Shown one piece after another: positions 33,157 to 39,946 of a stretch of 64,000 nt of DNA. This DNA is from Catenisphaera adipataccumulans (lineage in GTDB: Bacteria; Bacillota_I; Bacilli_A; Erysipelotrichales; Erysipelotrichaceae). The notes beneath the pieces were generated by a model. It had not been told where the DNA came from and ran no database searches. It worked only from the letters and a program-made list of their open reading frames with translations. The stretch covers positions 1 through 64,000 of the forward strand of contig NZ_JACHHK010000007.1 of NCBI RefSeq assembly GCF_014202755.1, read 5' to 3'. Every line of letters starts with the position of its first letter. Position 1 is the first letter of the stretch. A program made the position numbers and the translations under genes.

Positions 33157-34203
33157 GTGCAAAGTTTGTTTGACTTCAATTTTGAGCAAATGAAAGAAAT
33201 GGCGGAAGATCATGGCTGGAAAGGTTACCGCGGACAGCAGATCTTTGAATGGCTGTACCGCCATCGGGCCTGTTCCATCGACGAGATGACCACGCTGAGC
33301 AAAGAAACACGCGAAGTGCTCAAGGACCAATATGCACTGAATCCGCTGGAATTGGTCAAACAGCAAGTATCCCGTGACGGCACGACCAAATTTCTGTTCC
33401 GTACGCATGACGGTGCGTTATTGGAAAGTGTTTTGATGGTCTTTGATTACGGCAACAGCATCTGTGTTTCCAGTCAGGTCGGCTGCAATATGGGCTGTGC
33501 GTTCTGTGCCAGCGGTCTGACCAAGAAGATCCGCAATCTGACATCTGGTGAAATGGTCGGTCAGGTGATGTACGTGCAGAATGAATTGGATAAGCGGCAG
33601 GAACGGCTTTCTCATGTGGTCGTGATGGGCACCGGGGAGCCGTTTGATAATTATGAAAATGTGATGAACTTTACGTCGACGGTCAACCATGACCGCGGTC
33701 TGGCCATCAGCAGCCGGCACATCACGATTTCCACCTGCGGCATCGTTCCGCGCATTTACGATTTTGCGGATGCACATACACAGTACAATCTGGCGGTCAG
33801 TCTGCATGCGCCCAACGATAAGCTGCGCAGTCAGCTGATGCCGGTCAACCGTGCTTATCCGCTGGCGGAACTGATGAAGGCCATTGACTACTACACGAAG
33901 ACCAACAATCGTCGTCTGACGTTTGAATATATTTTACTGGATGGGGTGAACAACCGTCCGGAACATGCGCGTCAGCTGGCGCGTTTATTAAAGGGGCTGA
34001 ATGCGTACGTGAATTTAATTCCGTACAATGCGGTGGAAGAAAATCAATTCCGCAGCGTCAGCCGTCAAAAAGCGATGGTGTTTTACGACTTGCTCATGAA
34101 ACAAAACATTCGCTGTACGATTCGTAAGGAACACGGCAATGACATTGATGCGGCATGCGGTCAGTTACGGATCAAAGAGATGAAGAAAGGGAACGGACAA
34201 TGA
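33157..34203 (+). CDS. rlmN: Dual-specificity 23S rRNA/tRNA (adenine C2) methyltransferase RlmN
   Basis: A 348-residue radical-SAM enzyme that methylates C2 of A2503 in 23S rRNA and A37 of some tRNAs. The cluster motif is CNMGCAFCASG (CxxxCxxC), preceded by GNSICVSSQVG. MGTGEPFDNYENV and SISTCGIVPRI-type sequence (ITISTCGIVPRIYDFA) follow. The C-terminal Cys that forms the methyl-carrying thioether pair is in DAACGQLR. The start is GTG at 33157, preceded by GGGGG at 33146-33150. No other start gives the full N-terminal domain. It shares an ATGA overlap with stp. Confidence 0.96.
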   Translation: MQSLFDFNFEQMKEMAEDHGWKGYRGQQIFEWLYRHRACSIDEMTTLSKETREVLKDQYALNPLELVKQQVSRDGTTKFLFRTHDGALLESVLMVFDYGNSICVSSQVGCNMGCAFCASGLTKKIRNLTSGEMVGQVMYVQNELDKRQERLSHVVVMGTGEPFDNYENVMNFTSTVNHDRGLAISSRHITISTCGIVPRIYDFADAHTQYNLAVSLHAPNDKLRSQLMPVNRAYPLAELMKAIDYYTKTNNRRLTFEYILLDGVNNRPEHARQLARLLKGLNAYVNLIPYNAVEENQFRSVSRQKAMVFYDLLMKQNIRCTIRKEHGNDIDAACGQLRIKEMKKGNGQ

Positions 34204-34940
34204 TCAAAGCTTTCGGACAAACAGACATCGGCTGTGTGAGAAAAGAAAACGAAGATGACTTCTGCGTCTTTTCGAATGCGCACGAAGACTGGATCGCAGC
34301 AGTCTGTGACGGCATCGGCGGCAGTGCCGGCGGAGAGGTTGCCAGCAAGATCGCCGTGCGGACCTTGAAGGAAGCGTTTGAAAAAGCGCCGGAATTCATG
34401 AAAGATTCGCAGGTCAACGACTGGATCCAGTCGACATTGAACAAAGCTAACGATGCCATCTACTATAAGGGTCTGCATTCAGACGATGAAAAGGGAATGG
34501 GCACAACTTGTGTCGGTGCCATCATCACCGGGGATTCGACCTATATTTTTAATGTCGGCGATTCCCGCATCTATGCGGACTACACCGAAGGTCTGGTGCA
34601 GATGAGCGAAGACCATAGTGTGGTCGCACGTCTTTTGCGCAGCGGACAGATCACTCCTGAGGAAGCCAAAACACATGTGCAGCGCAATACGCTGACCAAC
34701 GCCTTGGGAATCTGGCGTGTTTTTCAAATTGATATTCATAAAATCGATCCGGGATACCAGTATTTATTGATCTCCAGTGATGGGCTGCATGGCTATGTTG
34801 CACATGATGATATACAAGCCATTGTTGAAAATCAAGACCTCGATGTCAAGACTAAGACCGAGGCGCTGATTGCCCGCGCCAACAATGCCGGCGGCTATGA
34901 CAACTGTACCGTGATCGTCTTGGAAAATGTTAAGGAGTAA
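34200..34940 (+). CDS. stp: PP2C-type serine/threonine phosphatase (Stp/PrpC)
   Basis: A 246-residue metal-dependent protein phosphatase that reverses PrkC phosphorylation. It has the PP2C motifs: QTDIGCVRKENEDDF at the N-terminus, VCDGIGGSAGGEVAS with metal-binding Asp and Gly, GTTCVGAII, NVGDSRIY, SEDHSVVARLL, LISSDGLHGYV and the final GGYDNCTVIVL. It is complete. The ATG at 34200 follows AAAGGGAACGG and overlaps the rlmN stop. It forms the usual phosphatase-kinase pair with prkC 3 nt downstream. Confidence 0.96.
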   Translation: MIKAFGQTDIGCVRKENEDDFCVFSNAHEDWIAAVCDGIGGSAGGEVASKIAVRTLKEAFEKAPEFMKDSQVNDWIQSTLNKANDAIYYKGLHSDDEKGMGTTCVGAIITGDSTYIFNVGDSRIYADYTEGLVQMSEDHSVVARLLRSGQITPEEAKTHVQRNTLTNALGIWRVFQIDIHKIDPGYQYLLISSDGLHGYVAHDDIQAIVENQDLDVKTKTEALIARANNAGGYDNCTVIVLENVKE

Positions 34941-34943
34941 CGA

Positions 34944-36605
34944 ATGGATTCGGAAATCAAAATCGTCGCCAACCGTTATGAGATCCTTTCATTGATCGGA
35001 CAAGGCGGTATGGCGGATGTTTATCAAGCGCGCGATACGATTTTGAATCGTGTCGTTGCGATAAAAATTCTGCGCGACAGCATGAGCGAAGACCCGATGA
35101 CCTTGGTGCGGTTCCAGCGGGAAGCCAGTGCTGCCAGCCGTTTATCACATCCCAACGTCGTCGATATCTATGATGTCGGCGAATACAAAGGCATGCATTA
35201 CATCGTGATGGAATATATCCGCGGCCGGACATTGAAACAGATGATCAAACGGCGCGGCTCCATCGATCTGCACGAATCGCTGAATATTATGATCCAGCTG
35301 ACCAGTGCGATCAAAGATGCGCATTCCCACAATATTATTCACCGTGATATCAAACCGCAGAATGTGCTGGTAAAGGATGACGGTACGGTCAAGATCACGG
35401 ATTTTGGCATCGCGATCGCCAATGACAATGTCCAGCTGACCATGAACAATGCGGTCATGGGTTCTGCGCATTATTTGGCGCCGGAAACGGCCCAGGGCAA
35501 AGAAGCGACGCCGCAGGTGGATATCTATTCATTGGGCATCGTTTTTTATGAATTGCTCACCGGCAGCGTGCCTTTTCAAGGACATACGCCGACAGAAATC
35601 GCTGTCAAACATCTGCGGGAACCGATGCCTTTTGTGCGCGATTATAACCCGGAGATCCCGCAGTCCGTGGAAAACATCATTCTGAAAGCGACTGCCAAAA
35701 ACCCGGCGGACCGGTATGAAAACGCCGGCTTGATGCTTTATGATCTGGAACATTGTCTGGATCCGGAATATATGAATATGCAGCGGCTGACGTTCGATGA
35801 TCGGCCGATCGCCAATGTCGATGTTTCGCACGGGCATGTGGAAGTGGAGTACGATGATCGGCCCGTAAGCAAACCGAAAAAGCAGCGGAACTGGGCGACG
35901 ATCCTTACGATATCGATCTGCGCTATCATCATTGCGGTCATCTTATTCTTGATGGCCTGGGTGACCGGTCTGGTGCGGTTCAGCGGCATGCTCGGGTATG
36001 AAACCATGCCGGATGTGACCGAGATGAAAGTGGCAGATGCCGAAGAAAAACTTGAAGCATCCGACTTCACGCACTATAAGATCAAACGCAAAGTCAGCGA
36101 CAGTGTCAAAAAAGGTTATGTGATCGAAACCAATTACGATGCCGGTGACGTGGTCTCTACCGAAGACACGGTCGTATTGACGGTCAGTAAAGGACCAAGT
36201 TATTTGATCAAAGATTATACCGGACTATATTTAGCTGACGTCAAACAGGAATTTGAAGATGACGACGTCAATGTAAAGATCAAAGTAAAGTATAAGAATG
36301 CCTCGGATACCAATCCTGGCGTGATCCTGAAACAGTCAAAACTGGAAGCAGGCGATCGGATCGATCCGGATGCCGGTGAAACCATTCAGTTTACGGTTTC
36401 GCGTTATCCGACCATCACGATCCCGGAGAAGATCATCGGAATGGATGTCACAAAAGCGAAGAAACTGCTGAATGACAAAGGCGTTGCAGTCGTGACGGAA
36501 CAGGTCGGCAGCGGATCCGGCGAAGTCCTTTACAGCAGCCCGTCGGTCGGCAGTACGTATACACAGGAAGGATCGGACAGCGTTGTCACGCTGTATTATG
36601 ACTGA
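34944..36605 (+). CDS. prkC: PASTA-domain serine/threonine protein kinase
   Basis: A 553-residue membrane kinase that senses cell-wall precursors or muropeptides. The kinase domain has GQGGMADVYQAR (residues 20-30), Lys41, HRDIKPQN with catalytic Asp135, and DFGIA (153-157). An APE-type segment (YLAPETAQGKE) follows. One transmembrane helix lies near 320-345. The extracellular part carries three PASTA repeats, from about residues 355-425, 426-490 and 491-553. Many homologues have three or four. It is followed by rsgA, a combination conserved across Bacillota that links kinase signalling to ribosome assembly. Confidence 0.96.
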   Translation: MDSEIKIVANRYEILSLIGQGGMADVYQARDTILNRVVAIKILRDSMSEDPMTLVRFQREASAASRLSHPNVVDIYDVGEYKGMHYIVMEYIRGRTLKQMIKRRGSIDLHESLNIMIQLTSAIKDAHSHNIIHRDIKPQNVLVKDDGTVKITDFGIAIANDNVQLTMNNAVMGSAHYLAPETAQGKEATPQVDIYSLGIVFYELLTGSVPFQGHTPTEIAVKHLREPMPFVRDYNPEIPQSVENIILKATAKNPADRYENAGLMLYDLEHCLDPEYMNMQRLTFDDRPIANVDVSHGHVEVEYDDRPVSKPKKQRNWATILTISICAIIIAVILFLMAWVTGLVRFSGMLGYETMPDVTEMKVADAEEKLEASDFTHYKIKRKVSDSVKKGYVIETNYDAGDVVSTEDTVVLTVSKGPSYLIKDYTGLYLADVKQEFEDDDVNVKIKVKYKNASDTNPGVILKQSKLEAGDRIDPDAGETIQFTVSRYPTITIPEKIIGMDVTKAKKLLNDKGVAVVTEQVGSGSGEVLYSSPSVGSTYTQEGSDSVVTLYYD

Positions 36606-36606
36606 T

Positions 36607-37446
36607 ATGAAACAAGGAACGATCATAAAAATTATTTCTAACCAGTATACGATCCATTCGGCGGAAGAAGAAATCATCGCCACGCCGCGCGGTAAAATGC
36701 GCCGGGACGGTGCGCCGGTCGTCGGCGATCACGTTGAGTATGAATATATCGAAGGCTCGTACCGCATCCATCGTGTGCTGCCGCGGCAAAATCGGCTGCT
36801 GCGGCCGGCGATGGCAAATGTCGATCAGGCGCTGATCGTTACCAGTATGAAAGATCCGGATTTTTCGGAGCACCTGCTCAACCGCCTGATCTTTCTGATT
36901 TCTCTGGCCCATGTAGAGCCGATCATCTGCGTGACAAAAGTCGATCTCTATGACAAAGATGCCGAAAAGCAGTTTACCTGGTATGAAAAAGCAGGATATA
37001 CAGTTGTCTATTCCTATCCGGGCAGTGATGATGAAGATCTGAAAACGATCTTATCCGGAAAGATCAGCGTTTTATGCGGTCAGTCAGGAGCCGGGAAAAG
37101 CTCGCTGCTCAATCGGCTGGATCCGGATTTCCAGCTGCAGACGCAGGAAATCTCCAAAGCGTTAGGCCGCGGAAAACACACGACCCGCTATTGTCAGCTG
37201 CATCCGATCCTGGATGGCTGGGTCGGGGATACACCAGGCTTTTCCAGCTTGGATTTTTCCAGGCTGGATCTTTCAGAGATGGATAAGGTCATCAAAGATT
37301 TTCAGCCCTATCTGGGCAAGTGCCGGTTTTCCGACTGCCGGCATTTGAAGGAACCGGACTGTGCTGTCAAACAAGCGGTAGAAAACGGTGAAATCAATCC
37401 GGTCTTATATGAAGATTATCGTCAAATTAGGGAGGAATTTTCATGA
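36607..37446 (+). CDS. rsgA: Small-ribosomal-subunit biogenesis GTPase RsgA
   Basis: A 279-residue circularly permuted GTPase that acts in late 30S maturation. It has an N-terminal OB domain (PVVGDHVEYEY), then G4 VTKVDL before G1 GQSGAGKSSLLN, with G3 DTPGF after it. The zinc-binding C-terminus has CRFSDCRHLKEPDCAVKQAV. I prefer the ATG at 36607 because the N-terminus then matches Bacillus RsgA. An ATG at 36598 is in frame and overlaps prkC; neither has a clear ribosome binding site, so translation is probably coupled. It shares an ATGA overlap with rpe. Confidence 0.95.
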   Translation: MKQGTIIKIISNQYTIHSAEEEIIATPRGKMRRDGAPVVGDHVEYEYIEGSYRIHRVLPRQNRLLRPAMANVDQALIVTSMKDPDFSEHLLNRLIFLISLAHVEPIICVTKVDLYDKDAEKQFTWYEKAGYTVVYSYPGSDDEDLKTILSGKISVLCGQSGAGKSSLLNRLDPDFQLQTQEISKALGRGKHTTRYCQLHPILDGWVGDTPGFSSLDFSRLDLSEMDKVIKDFQPYLGKCRFSDCRHLKEPDCAVKQAVENGEINPVLYEDYRQIREEFS

Positions 37447-38099
37447 ATGAACATATCGTAGCACCATCGGTCCTTTCCTTGGATTATACACATTTGAAGG
37501 AACAAGTCCGCGGATTGAATGAATCCAATGCCAAGTGGCTGCATTTTGATGTGATGGACGGTCACTTTGTTCCCAATATCACGTTTGGTCCGATCATCCT
37601 GCATACTTTTGATCAGATGTCGGATTTATTTATGGACGTCCACCTGATGATCTCGGATCCGGAAAAATATATTCCGGATTTCATCAAGGCCGGTGCCGAC
37701 GGGATCACGTTCCATACAGAAGCCGTCGGAAATGACATTGAACACATCCGGAAGATCATCGATGATCTGCATGCACAGTCGATCAAGGCGGGTTTTGTGG
37801 TCAAACCGAAAACGGATATCAAGCAGTTTGAACCGTTGCTGCCGATCGTGGATTACATTTTGATCATGAGCGTGGAACCGGGATTCGGCGGTCAGAAATT
37901 TATGCCGGATCAGCTGGAAAAAGTGCGCTGGCTGGATGCCAAACGGCAGGAAAAAGGATTGTCCTTCCGCATTGAGATCGACGGCGGCATCAATGAAACA
38001 ACCGCAAAAGAAGCGTATGCAGCCGGCTGTGATACATTGGTCGCCGGCAGTTACGTTTTCAAGGCAGATATTGCCAAACAAGTTGATTCGATCTTATGA
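37443..38099 (+). CDS. rpe: Ribulose-phosphate 3-epimerase
   Basis: A 218-residue TIM-barrel enzyme that interconverts ribulose 5-phosphate and xylulose 5-phosphate in the pentose phosphate pathway. It has the expected SVLSLDYTHL, the metal-site HFDVMDGHFVPNITFGP, MDVHLMI, MSVEPGFGGQKF and IEIDGGINETTA; the acidic and His metal ligands are all present. It has the ribosome binding site GGGAGGAA and an ATGA overlap with rsgA on one side and thiN on the other. Confidence 0.96.
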   Translation: MNEHIVAPSVLSLDYTHLKEQVRGLNESNAKWLHFDVMDGHFVPNITFGPIILHTFDQMSDLFMDVHLMISDPEKYIPDFIKAGADGITFHTEAVGNDIEHIRKIIDDLHAQSIKAGFVVKPKTDIKQFEPLLPIVDYILIMSVEPGFGGQKFMPDQLEKVRWLDAKRQEKGLSFRIEIDGGINETTAKEAYAAGCDTLVAGSYVFKADIAKQVDSIL

Positions 38100-38701
38100 A
38101 ACGTGCTGTTTTGATCACGCCGATGGTCTCTGAGATCGTACCGTTTGATGAGGCAGATTATATCGGAGTTGATGCCGGTGCCCTGCTGCTGCTTCATAAG
38201 AGAATGCCGATGAAATGTGCTGTCGGGGATTTTGATTCAATGGATGAAACACAGTTTAAAATGCTCGAAGCGGCAGTCAAGATCTACCAGCATCCGGTCA
38301 TGAAAAATGAAACTGACAGTGAACTGGCGATCCGTCTGTGCATCGAAAACGGTTATGACGATGTGATCCTGGAAGGCGGTCTGAACGGCCGCATCGATCA
38401 TACGATCGCCAACCTGCGTTTATTGATGTATCGCTATCCGCAGGTGACCATTTTGGATGGGGACCAAATGGTACGTATACTGCGACCAGGTACGTATAGG
38501 GTCGATACGCCCGTCAAGCACGTTTCCTTTTTTGCGGTCGAACCATCCGTGCTTACGCTGCGGGGCTTTCTCTATCCGCTTGAACATCGATCGATCGTCC
38601 CTTCGGATATTTTTACGGTTTCCAACTCATTGGATGGCAAAGAAGGGCAGATCATCGTAGAAGCGGGCAAGGTATTGTATATTTGTTCGAATGAAAGGTA
38701 G
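38096..38701 (+). CDS. thiN: Thiamine pyrophosphokinase
   Basis: A 201-residue enzyme that converts thiamine and ATP to thiamine pyrophosphate. The N-terminal catalytic domain contains GVDAGALLLL, the acidic CAVGDFDSMDE, and NETDSELAI followed by LEGGLNGRIDHTIANL. The C-terminal beta-domain binds thiamine. It completes the canonical rpe-thiN pair at the end of the Bacillota priA series. The product is the cofactor of nifJ and dxs, both encoded in this window. It overlaps rpe by 4 nt. Confidence 0.93.
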   Translation: MKRAVLITPMVSEIVPFDEADYIGVDAGALLLLHKRMPMKCAVGDFDSMDETQFKMLEAAVKIYQHPVMKNETDSELAIRLCIENGYDDVILEGGLNGRIDHTIANLRLLMYRYPQVTILDGDQMVRILRPGTYRVDTPVKHVSFFAVEPSVLTLRGFLYPLEHRSIVPSDIFTVSNSLDGKEGQIIVEAGKVLYICSNER

Positions 38702-38707
38702 CTCGGT

Positions 38708-39946
38708 ATGACATTCTTTTTATCCGGTCTTTTATTTCTCTTATTGGGGATGTTTATGATTTTTATTCCGACGATGGTGTTTCGCTGGTTCAGTGAAGCA
38801 CTCTTTTTCGGCCTGATCGTACATGCCTGTCTGCAGGGACAGCGTTTTTTCCGCGGGCAGGGAAGCGGCCATTTTGTCGGTGCCGCTGTTTCTGCCGCAT
38901 TCGCCGTGTTTATTTTGTTTCATCAGCAGTTTCCTGCCTGCTTGCTGCACTTTTTATTCGGGTGCTATTGTTTATTCAGCGGTCTGCTTTCAGCCGTCCA
39001 GTTTTTGATCAACCGGAAGAATCATGCAGACGGCGGGCTGTTCTTTTTCTTCCATACGGCAGCGGCCTTCAGCATCGGTGTGTTCGCACTGACGCATCCC
39101 AATACAGCGGATGAAGTGCTGCAGATCTACGGTCTATATTTTATCTTGCTGGGGATCCGTTATCTGCACGATGCCCGTCAAAGTAAGATCTTTGAATCGG
39201 CCTATCATTGGCATCGGAAACTGCGGATCGCCATGCCGGCTTTGGCGGCTGCCTGGCTGCCGAGCTGGTTTATTCATCATTTTATCCGGACCCGATCGGA
39301 TGCCGACCGCCGCAAGAGTGACGAACAACCAGATCTAAAGATCATGGTCCATGTCGGCGAAAAAGGCATTCAAAAAATCGGGCACATTACATTCTGTCTG
39401 GACAATATAGTCTACAGTTTTGGAAATTATGATCGATCGGCTTCAAAACTGGGATCGATTCTTGGTGACGGCATCTTTTTTACGGCCCCGTATCGAGCGT
39501 ATATGAAAAATATAATCGTTGGAGAGAAGAATACCATCGTAGAGTTCGGCATCCGGATCACGGCCGCTCAGAAAAAGGCCATCCAGACAGAAATCGAAAA
39601 GCTCAAAACGGCTGCCGTCCGGTGGCACTGTCCGCTTGAAACAGATGCCTCCGGCCGGGAACAAAAACTGAAAGAAGACTATGCCTGCCGCGTCTATGCG
39701 CGGACCGGGGCGCAGTTTTATAAATTTACGCAGGGAATTTTTAAAAAATACTGGGCCTTCGGCGGCAATTGTGCCTTGTTTGTCGATCAGGCATTAAAAA
39801 AGCTGCAGGCTTCGATCCTGGATTTCCGTCTGATCATGTCGCCGGGAATTTATTTTGACTGGCTGGAGAGTGAATTCGCAAAGAAAAACAGCCCGGTCAT
39901 TTCACGGACTGTCTATTTGGCAGAAGATTTCCAGAGCTCGATTTGA
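38708..39946 (+). CDS. DUF308-like membrane protein fused to a permuted papain/NlpC-P60-like domain
   Basis: A 412-residue protein of no recognised overall family. Residues 1-155 hold six or so hydrophobic segments with HdeD/DUF308-like spacing, and another hydrophobic stretch is near 173-193. The C-terminal half (about 208-400) is soluble. It has KIMVHVGEKG...KIGHITFCLDNIVYSFGNYD with His226, and later WAFGGNCALFVDQALKKL with Cys355. A His motif before an N-C-x-x-[FY]-V motif is the order seen in permuted papain-like amidases and LRAT/YiiX-type proteins, so a membrane-anchored peptidase, amidase or acyltransferase is possible. It starts 6 nt after thiN and ends overlapping the converging TtcA-like gene by 34 nt. 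Confidence 0.6.
   Translation: MTFFLSGLLFLLLGMFMIFIPTMVFRWFSEALFFGLIVHACLQGQRFFRGQGSGHFVGAAVSAAFAVFILFHQQFPACLLHFLFGCYCLFSGLLSAVQFLINRKNHADGGLFFFFHTAAAFSIGVFALTHPNTADEVLQIYGLYFILLGIRYLHDARQSKIFESAYHWHRKLRIAMPALAAAWLPSWFIHHFIRTRSDADRRKSDEQPDLKIMVHVGEKGIQKIGHITFCLDNIVYSFGNYDRSASKLGSILGDGIFFTAPYRAYMKNIIVGEKNTIVEFGIRITAAQKKAIQTEIEKLKTAAVRWHCPLETDASGREQKLKEDYACRVYARTGAQFYKFTQGIFKKYWAFGGNCALFVDQALKKLQASILDFRLIMSPGIYFDWLESEFAKKNSPVISRTVYLAEDFQSSI

Follow-up and report, generated by a model that had tools for sequence, protein, structure and literature searches.

We report a fusion protein that joins a DUF308-type module of six membrane helices to a permuted NlpC/P60 domain carrying an invariant His226/Cys355 dyad. 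The gene, found in the first 64,000 nucleotides of contig NZ_JACHHK010000007.1 of Catenisphaera adipataccumulans (hereafter the window), runs from an ATG start to a TGA stop (38708..39946, plus strand) and encodes this membrane-anchored protein of 412 aa (residues 1-412), exactly where an earlier note, made from the sequence alone, had placed the open reading frame. By analogy with characterized relatives, from which the putative substrate and acceptor are taken, we favor, with moderate confidence, a membrane-integral thiol acyl-enzyme that would act on the acyl ester of a membrane lipid at the cytoplasmic leaflet.

Domain architecture, topology and predicted fold

The membrane module spans residues 2-161 (38711..39190, plus strand). 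Its description as DUF308/HdeD-like in the earlier note was supported by Pfam, since DUF308 (PF03729) scored 27.2 bits against a cut-off of 25; the same family was matched at E up to 1 by 25 of 32 relatives. AlphaFold2 (AF2) placed six transmembrane helices in this region, at residues 2-19, 21-48, 54-71, 75-104, 110-129 and 134-161, and the charge pattern of the module corresponds to an N-terminus inside the cell. Structural matches returned by VIA-align for this half of the protein were dismissed as generic helix matches.

Between the two halves there is a conserved segment, LPxxxxAxxPxxxLxxIN (residues 177-194; 39236..39289, plus strand), modeled by AF2 as a helix from 178 to 194. Its best 17-mer hydrophobicity is 1.46, versus 1.86-2.58 for helices 1 to 6; it contains about two prolines, and 88% of the members have a charged residue in it, so that it is probably an interfacial or re-entrant helix lying by the membrane and not a seventh span. 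The distribution of positive charges was strongly asymmetric among 46 relatives, with a mean K+R of 10.5 for the even loops (2, 4 and 6) versus 2.0 for the odd ones (1, 3 and 5), the excess per residue having the same sign in 45 of the 46; under the positive-inside rule, both the N-terminus and the loop that follows helix 6 would then lie inside. As reading segment 177-194 as an interfacial helix leaves the active site on that side, the most likely orientation of the catalytic domain is toward the cytoplasmic leaflet, the reverse of that of Lnb, a prediction that combines the charge bias with the reading of the segment; if the segment were to cross the membrane, the domain would be outside.

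The C-terminal half (residues 204-412; 39317..39943, plus strand) gave no match when the window protein was compared with Pfam, NCBIfam and PHROGs. AF2 predicted the whole protein, using the family alignment, with a pLDDT of 82.6, and the domain alone with a pLDDT of 87.3 and a pTM of 0.86. When PDB structures were re-ranked with VIA-align against the domain model, TseH (6v98) came first (Z 10.4, 151/183 residues, rmsd 4.1) and YiiX (2if6) second (Z 8.4, 130/180 residues, rmsd 3.3), with a third row at Z 2.7; the full-length model again had TseH as its first match (Z 10.7 over residues 204-409). Both are solved permuted NlpC/P60 structures. Thus the structural comparison proposed in the earlier note was positive with VIA-align and negative with Foldseek, which found no significant match in the PDB for either the full-length or the domain model (for the domain, none at E<=0.001). 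In the Foldseek viral library the first-ranked match was a cysteine peptidase (E 2e-3, probability 0.99), with a PPPDE protein also among the best rows. When PDB sequences were searched using the profile of the domain, R699 was the sole match under 0.1 (E 0.004), a partial one judged to be chance, having only an NC pair in common. The fold assignment rests on the VIA-align re-ranking and the similarity to Lnb_N described below; on these grounds the models agree with the permuted papain-like fold (NlpC/P60, of YiiX/LRAT/DUF4105 type) that had been suggested for this half.

His226 (codon 39383..39385, plus strand), the predicted catalytic base, opens a core strand of the AF2 model (227-231 by DSSP), while Cys355 (codon 39770..39772, plus strand), the predicted nucleophile, sits at the N-terminal end of core helix 354-366. 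A cysteine at the start of a helix and a histidine at the start of a strand are the arrangement of papain-like (PMC10318531) and permuted NlpC/P60 enzymes (PMC3142127). The histidine precedes the cysteine by 129 residues, matching the GHIT-type His226 followed by Cys355 about 130 residues later that the sequence had first suggested. Conservation, which had been singled out as the check on these two residues, was evaluated on 68 non-redundant domains, each pair less than 90% identical, and both residues were invariant (68/68), together with Gly225, Gly239, Gly255, Asn354, Pro379, Gly380 and Tyr382, making nine invariant columns. Lys339 was kept in 67 of the 68 domains, as was Tyr238, the window protein alone having Phe. 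Asp242 (codon 39431..39433, plus strand; 66/68), located at His +16, is a candidate third catalytic residue in a position comparable to Glu64 of YiiX, found at His +15 (PMC3142127); likewise Tyr348 (codon 39749..39751, plus strand; 58 Tyr and 10 Phe of 68) is a candidate for the NlpC/P60 signature tyrosine, located at Cys -7 as in PPPDE1 (PMC3142127).

The window copy differs from the other 67 relatives at two sites, Phe238 (codon 39419-39421) and Leu375 (codon 39830-39832), where they have Tyr and Gly, respectively. It also sits on a long branch of the tree (1.09), which makes it an unusual member of the family, though its catalytic dyad is intact.

Sequence relatives, distribution and gene neighborhood

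As judged by profile comparison, the nearest named family is Lnb_N/DUF4105 (PF13387). Of 32 relatives, 16 matched this profile at E up to 1, over the same region in those inspected; a single relative, one Ileibacterium copy, passed the cut-off (7.3e-5; 22.8 versus 22.2 bits), the others falling below it, and the window protein itself gave no match. Since no Lnb_N protein over the cut-off was found in 392 genomes of the phylum, the family appears to be a separate branch beside Lnb and not Lnb itself. DUF4105 has been grouped with Tox-Act1 (a phospholipase), TseH, YiiX and LRAT, all of them permuted and acting on lipids, and a Gram-positive branch has been reported within DUF4105 (PMC12994826); the same source cites Lnb as the Bacteroides lipoprotein N-acyltransferase. 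A hydrophobic pocket for the acyl group is a feature of permuted NlpC/P60 enzymes, and a fatty acid was found bound to YiiX (PMC3142127). The YiiX-like family Peptidase_C92 (PF05708) had no match in the whole genome, and LRAT (PF04970) had none in the window protein, one relative matching it at E 0.19, far below the cut-off.

Homologues with the same two-part layout were present in 25 of 60 relatives, with identities of 21-39%, mostly over the full length. Scanning genome contigs yielded 30 named loci in Faecalicoccus, Holdemanella, Faecalitalea, Ileibacterium, Allobaculum and Merdibacter and, outside the class, in Acetobacterium; in addition, a plasmid record of Monoglobus pectinilyticus bears one relative, labeled in RefSeq as a DUF308 domain-containing protein. 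A profile of the C-terminal domain detected it in 31 of the 392 genomes, and the full-domain matches listed in that search were all part of long open frames (345-481 aa, the majority 400 aa or longer), so that the domain was not seen there without its membrane part. Two stand-alone DUF308-type proteins are encoded elsewhere in the window's own genome. Relatives of the window protein were also searched for in viral contigs and none were found.

Two tandem copies of the gene were observed in Ileibacterium (L046:5971-8611; L042:5941-8820). Together with relatives from Allobaculum and RD49, the second copies form a clade of their own (support 100/100), indicating the existence of a diverged paralogue, and it is one of these diverged Ileibacterium sequences that scores above the Lnb_N cut-off. 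In Allobaculum sp. Allo2, the copy at the prkC position (L054:5770-7220) is split over two reading frames, so it is either broken or affected by a sequencing error.

The genes upstream form a probable operon, stp, prkC (encoding the PASTA kinase), rsgA, rpe and thiN (34203..38701, plus strand), and the thiN stop codon is separated from the gene by a gap of 6 bp. NCBIfam equivalog matches above cut-off identified the upstream products as RlmN, a Stp1-type PP2C, a PASTA Ser/Thr kinase, RsgA, ribulose-phosphate 3-epimerase and thiamine diphosphokinase, and the location of the gene immediately after prkC-rsgA-rpe-thiN, as first noted, was thus upheld. A TtcA-like gene on the minus strand lies tail to tail with it, overlapping its 3' end by 34 bp (window 39913-39946).

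The link to PASTA-kinase signalling proposed on the basis of this location was not supported as a general feature, because only one clade has the gene at the prkC position: the order from prkC through rsgA, rpe and thiN to the gene was seen in about 20 loci, all in one well-supported clade (100/98) which also holds later duplicates, and it does not occur elsewhere in the family. Within the same clade, after a gap of about 300 bp downstream, mraY-murD-uppP follows in Faecalitalea and a PBP gene in Merdibacter. In other clades the gene comes after those for an O-methyltransferase and an RraB-like protein and before a recurrent gene pair, or lies among unrelated genes. Given such heterogeneous contexts, neighborhood was rejected as a guide to function; the kinase genes represent an inherited position in one clade, which does not by itself demonstrate a functional link, and in that clade such a link may exist. 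In two separate lineages the family gene has a rubrerythrin gene next to it in the same orientation, and in Acetobacterium the gene is preceded by a different, ferritin-like rubrerythrin (neighbors at L095:1918-2559, L055:7358-7894, L061:7274-7810 and L057:4891-5373); this adjacency may be due to chance or may hint at oxidative stress.

Proposed activity and competing explanations

In the mechanism we propose, the six spans, with the N-terminus inside, and the short proline-containing interfacial helix would position the active site at the cytoplasmic leaflet. With His226, and perhaps also Asp242, as its activator, Cys355 would attack the acyl ester of a membrane lipid to give an acyl-thioester. 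The enzyme would be an acyltransferase if the acyl chain then passed to an amine or a hydroxyl, and a phospholipase if it passed to water; LRAT/HRASLS, Lnb and Tox-Act1 provide the precedents. Transfer of a lipid acyl group or lipolysis, in either case by way of a cysteine thioester, is the most likely chemistry, rather than peptidoglycan cleavage; by analogy, a lipid is preferred over peptidoglycan because of the hydrophobic acyl pocket of the permuted branch, the fatty acid of YiiX and the nearest family being one of lipid acyltransferases. More tentatively, the family as a whole could comprise hitherto unrecognized six-helix membrane enzymes of Firmicutes that use a permuted NlpC/P60 Cys-His site to remodel or transfer acyl chains on the cytoplasmic side of the membrane; they would correspond in bacteria to LRAT/HRASLS, with a topology opposite to that of Lnb.

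The main rival to this proposal is a lipoprotein N-acyltransferase like Lnb or LnsA, in which segment 177-194 would be a seventh helix, leaving the domain at the outer face to N-acylate diacyl lipoproteins. Lnb_N being the closest named family by sequence, LnsA of S. aureus being also a permuted NlpC/P60 protein (PMC7387801) and Lgt being present in the genome are all consistent with this role. Nevertheless, we regard it as unlikely, since it is weakened by the topology and by a Lit-family protein encoded in the same genome: the loop before segment 177-194 is placed inside by the charge bias (K+R 4.6), the segment has low hydrophobicity and contains two prolines as well as charged residues, and the genome already has Lit (PF07314, E 5.8e-40). 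Lit N-acylates lipoproteins by another route. The patchy occurrence of the family, in 25 of 60 relatives, also argues against such a role.

A use of the fold on proteins instead of lipids, with fatty-acyl groups being removed from or added to cytoplasmic or membrane proteins in the manner of PPPDE/YiiX deacylases and desumoylases, seems less probable still. We know of no acylated cytoplasmic protein targets in these bacteria. The proposal that YiiX cleaves fatty acid-amino acid amides (PMC3142127), the PPPDE protein in the viral fold search and the cytoplasmic placement are compatible with this explanation, but the nearest sequence family, Lnb_N, is a phospholipid-using acyltransferase. The least probable explanation, to which we give very little credence, is an envelope peptidoglycan or peptide amidase with canonical NlpC/P60-like activity under control of the PASTA kinase. 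The superfamily fold, the adjoining prkC and, in relatives, the mraY-murD-uppP or PBP genes could be taken in its favor, yet the circular permutation (His before Cys) characterizes the lipid-acting branch (PMC3142127, PMC12994826), the catalytic domain is predicted on the cytoplasmic side, and neighbors outside the one clade with the prkC position are unrelated. Therefore, between the two options raised in the earlier note, an acyltransferase appears the better one, whereas an envelope amidase is not favored, given a permuted branch that acts on lipids and a domain predicted to be cytoplasmic.

If the acyl-enzyme proposal is right, gut and environmental Firmicutes have a family of membrane-lipid-modifying enzymes that probably has so far been undescribed: the catalytic half of the window protein goes unnoticed in Pfam and NCBIfam, and a relative is named in RefSeq for its DUF308 domain only. 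For gut Erysipelotrichaceae and their relatives (Faecalicoccus, Holdemanella, Faecalitalea, Ileibacterium and Allobaculum), as well as for Acetobacterium and Monoglobus, the family offers a testable candidate for a lipid- or lipoprotein-acyl enzyme. Moreover, the permuted NlpC/P60 acyltransferase group, lately tied to lipoprotein maturation and interbacterial toxins, gains a polytopic membrane form.

Comparison with known systems

LRAT/HRASLS proteins are permuted NlpC/P60 acyl-enzymes tethered to the membrane, on whose surface their active site lies; their anchor is C-terminal, while the window protein has six N-terminal helices instead. Lnb from Bacteroides shares the permuted NlpC/P60 domain and the His...Cys order, and many relatives match its profile partially (about positions 54-135 of 175). 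In contrast to Lnb, the family has an N-terminal membrane module of DUF308 type, the window protein lacks a PF13387 match, and the catalytic domain is predicted to be cytoplasmic, the Lnb_N domain being periplasmic according to its Pfam description.

YiiX/YaeF (Peptidase C92, 2if6) is similar in fold (Z 8.4), in the order of His and Cys and probably in an acyl-type substrate, but these enzymes are devoid of the six-helix membrane module. TseH (6v98, DUF6695), a type VI effector, is the best solved match to the fold (Z 10.4, 151 residues); it is a secreted protein of a different organism, whereas the window protein is a chromosomally encoded membrane protein in a housekeeping operon, without a secretion or toxin context. 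LnsA from Staphylococcus aureus is, as here, a permuted NlpC/P60 protein of a Firmicute and takes part in lipoprotein acyl transfer, but it is only 189 aa long, is secreted via a signal peptide and needs LnsB (PMC7387801). Finally, while stand-alone DUF308-type proteins are without the catalytic domain, the window protein has in common with HdeD/DUF308 proteins its N-terminal six-helix module, with DUF308 scoring over the cut-off.
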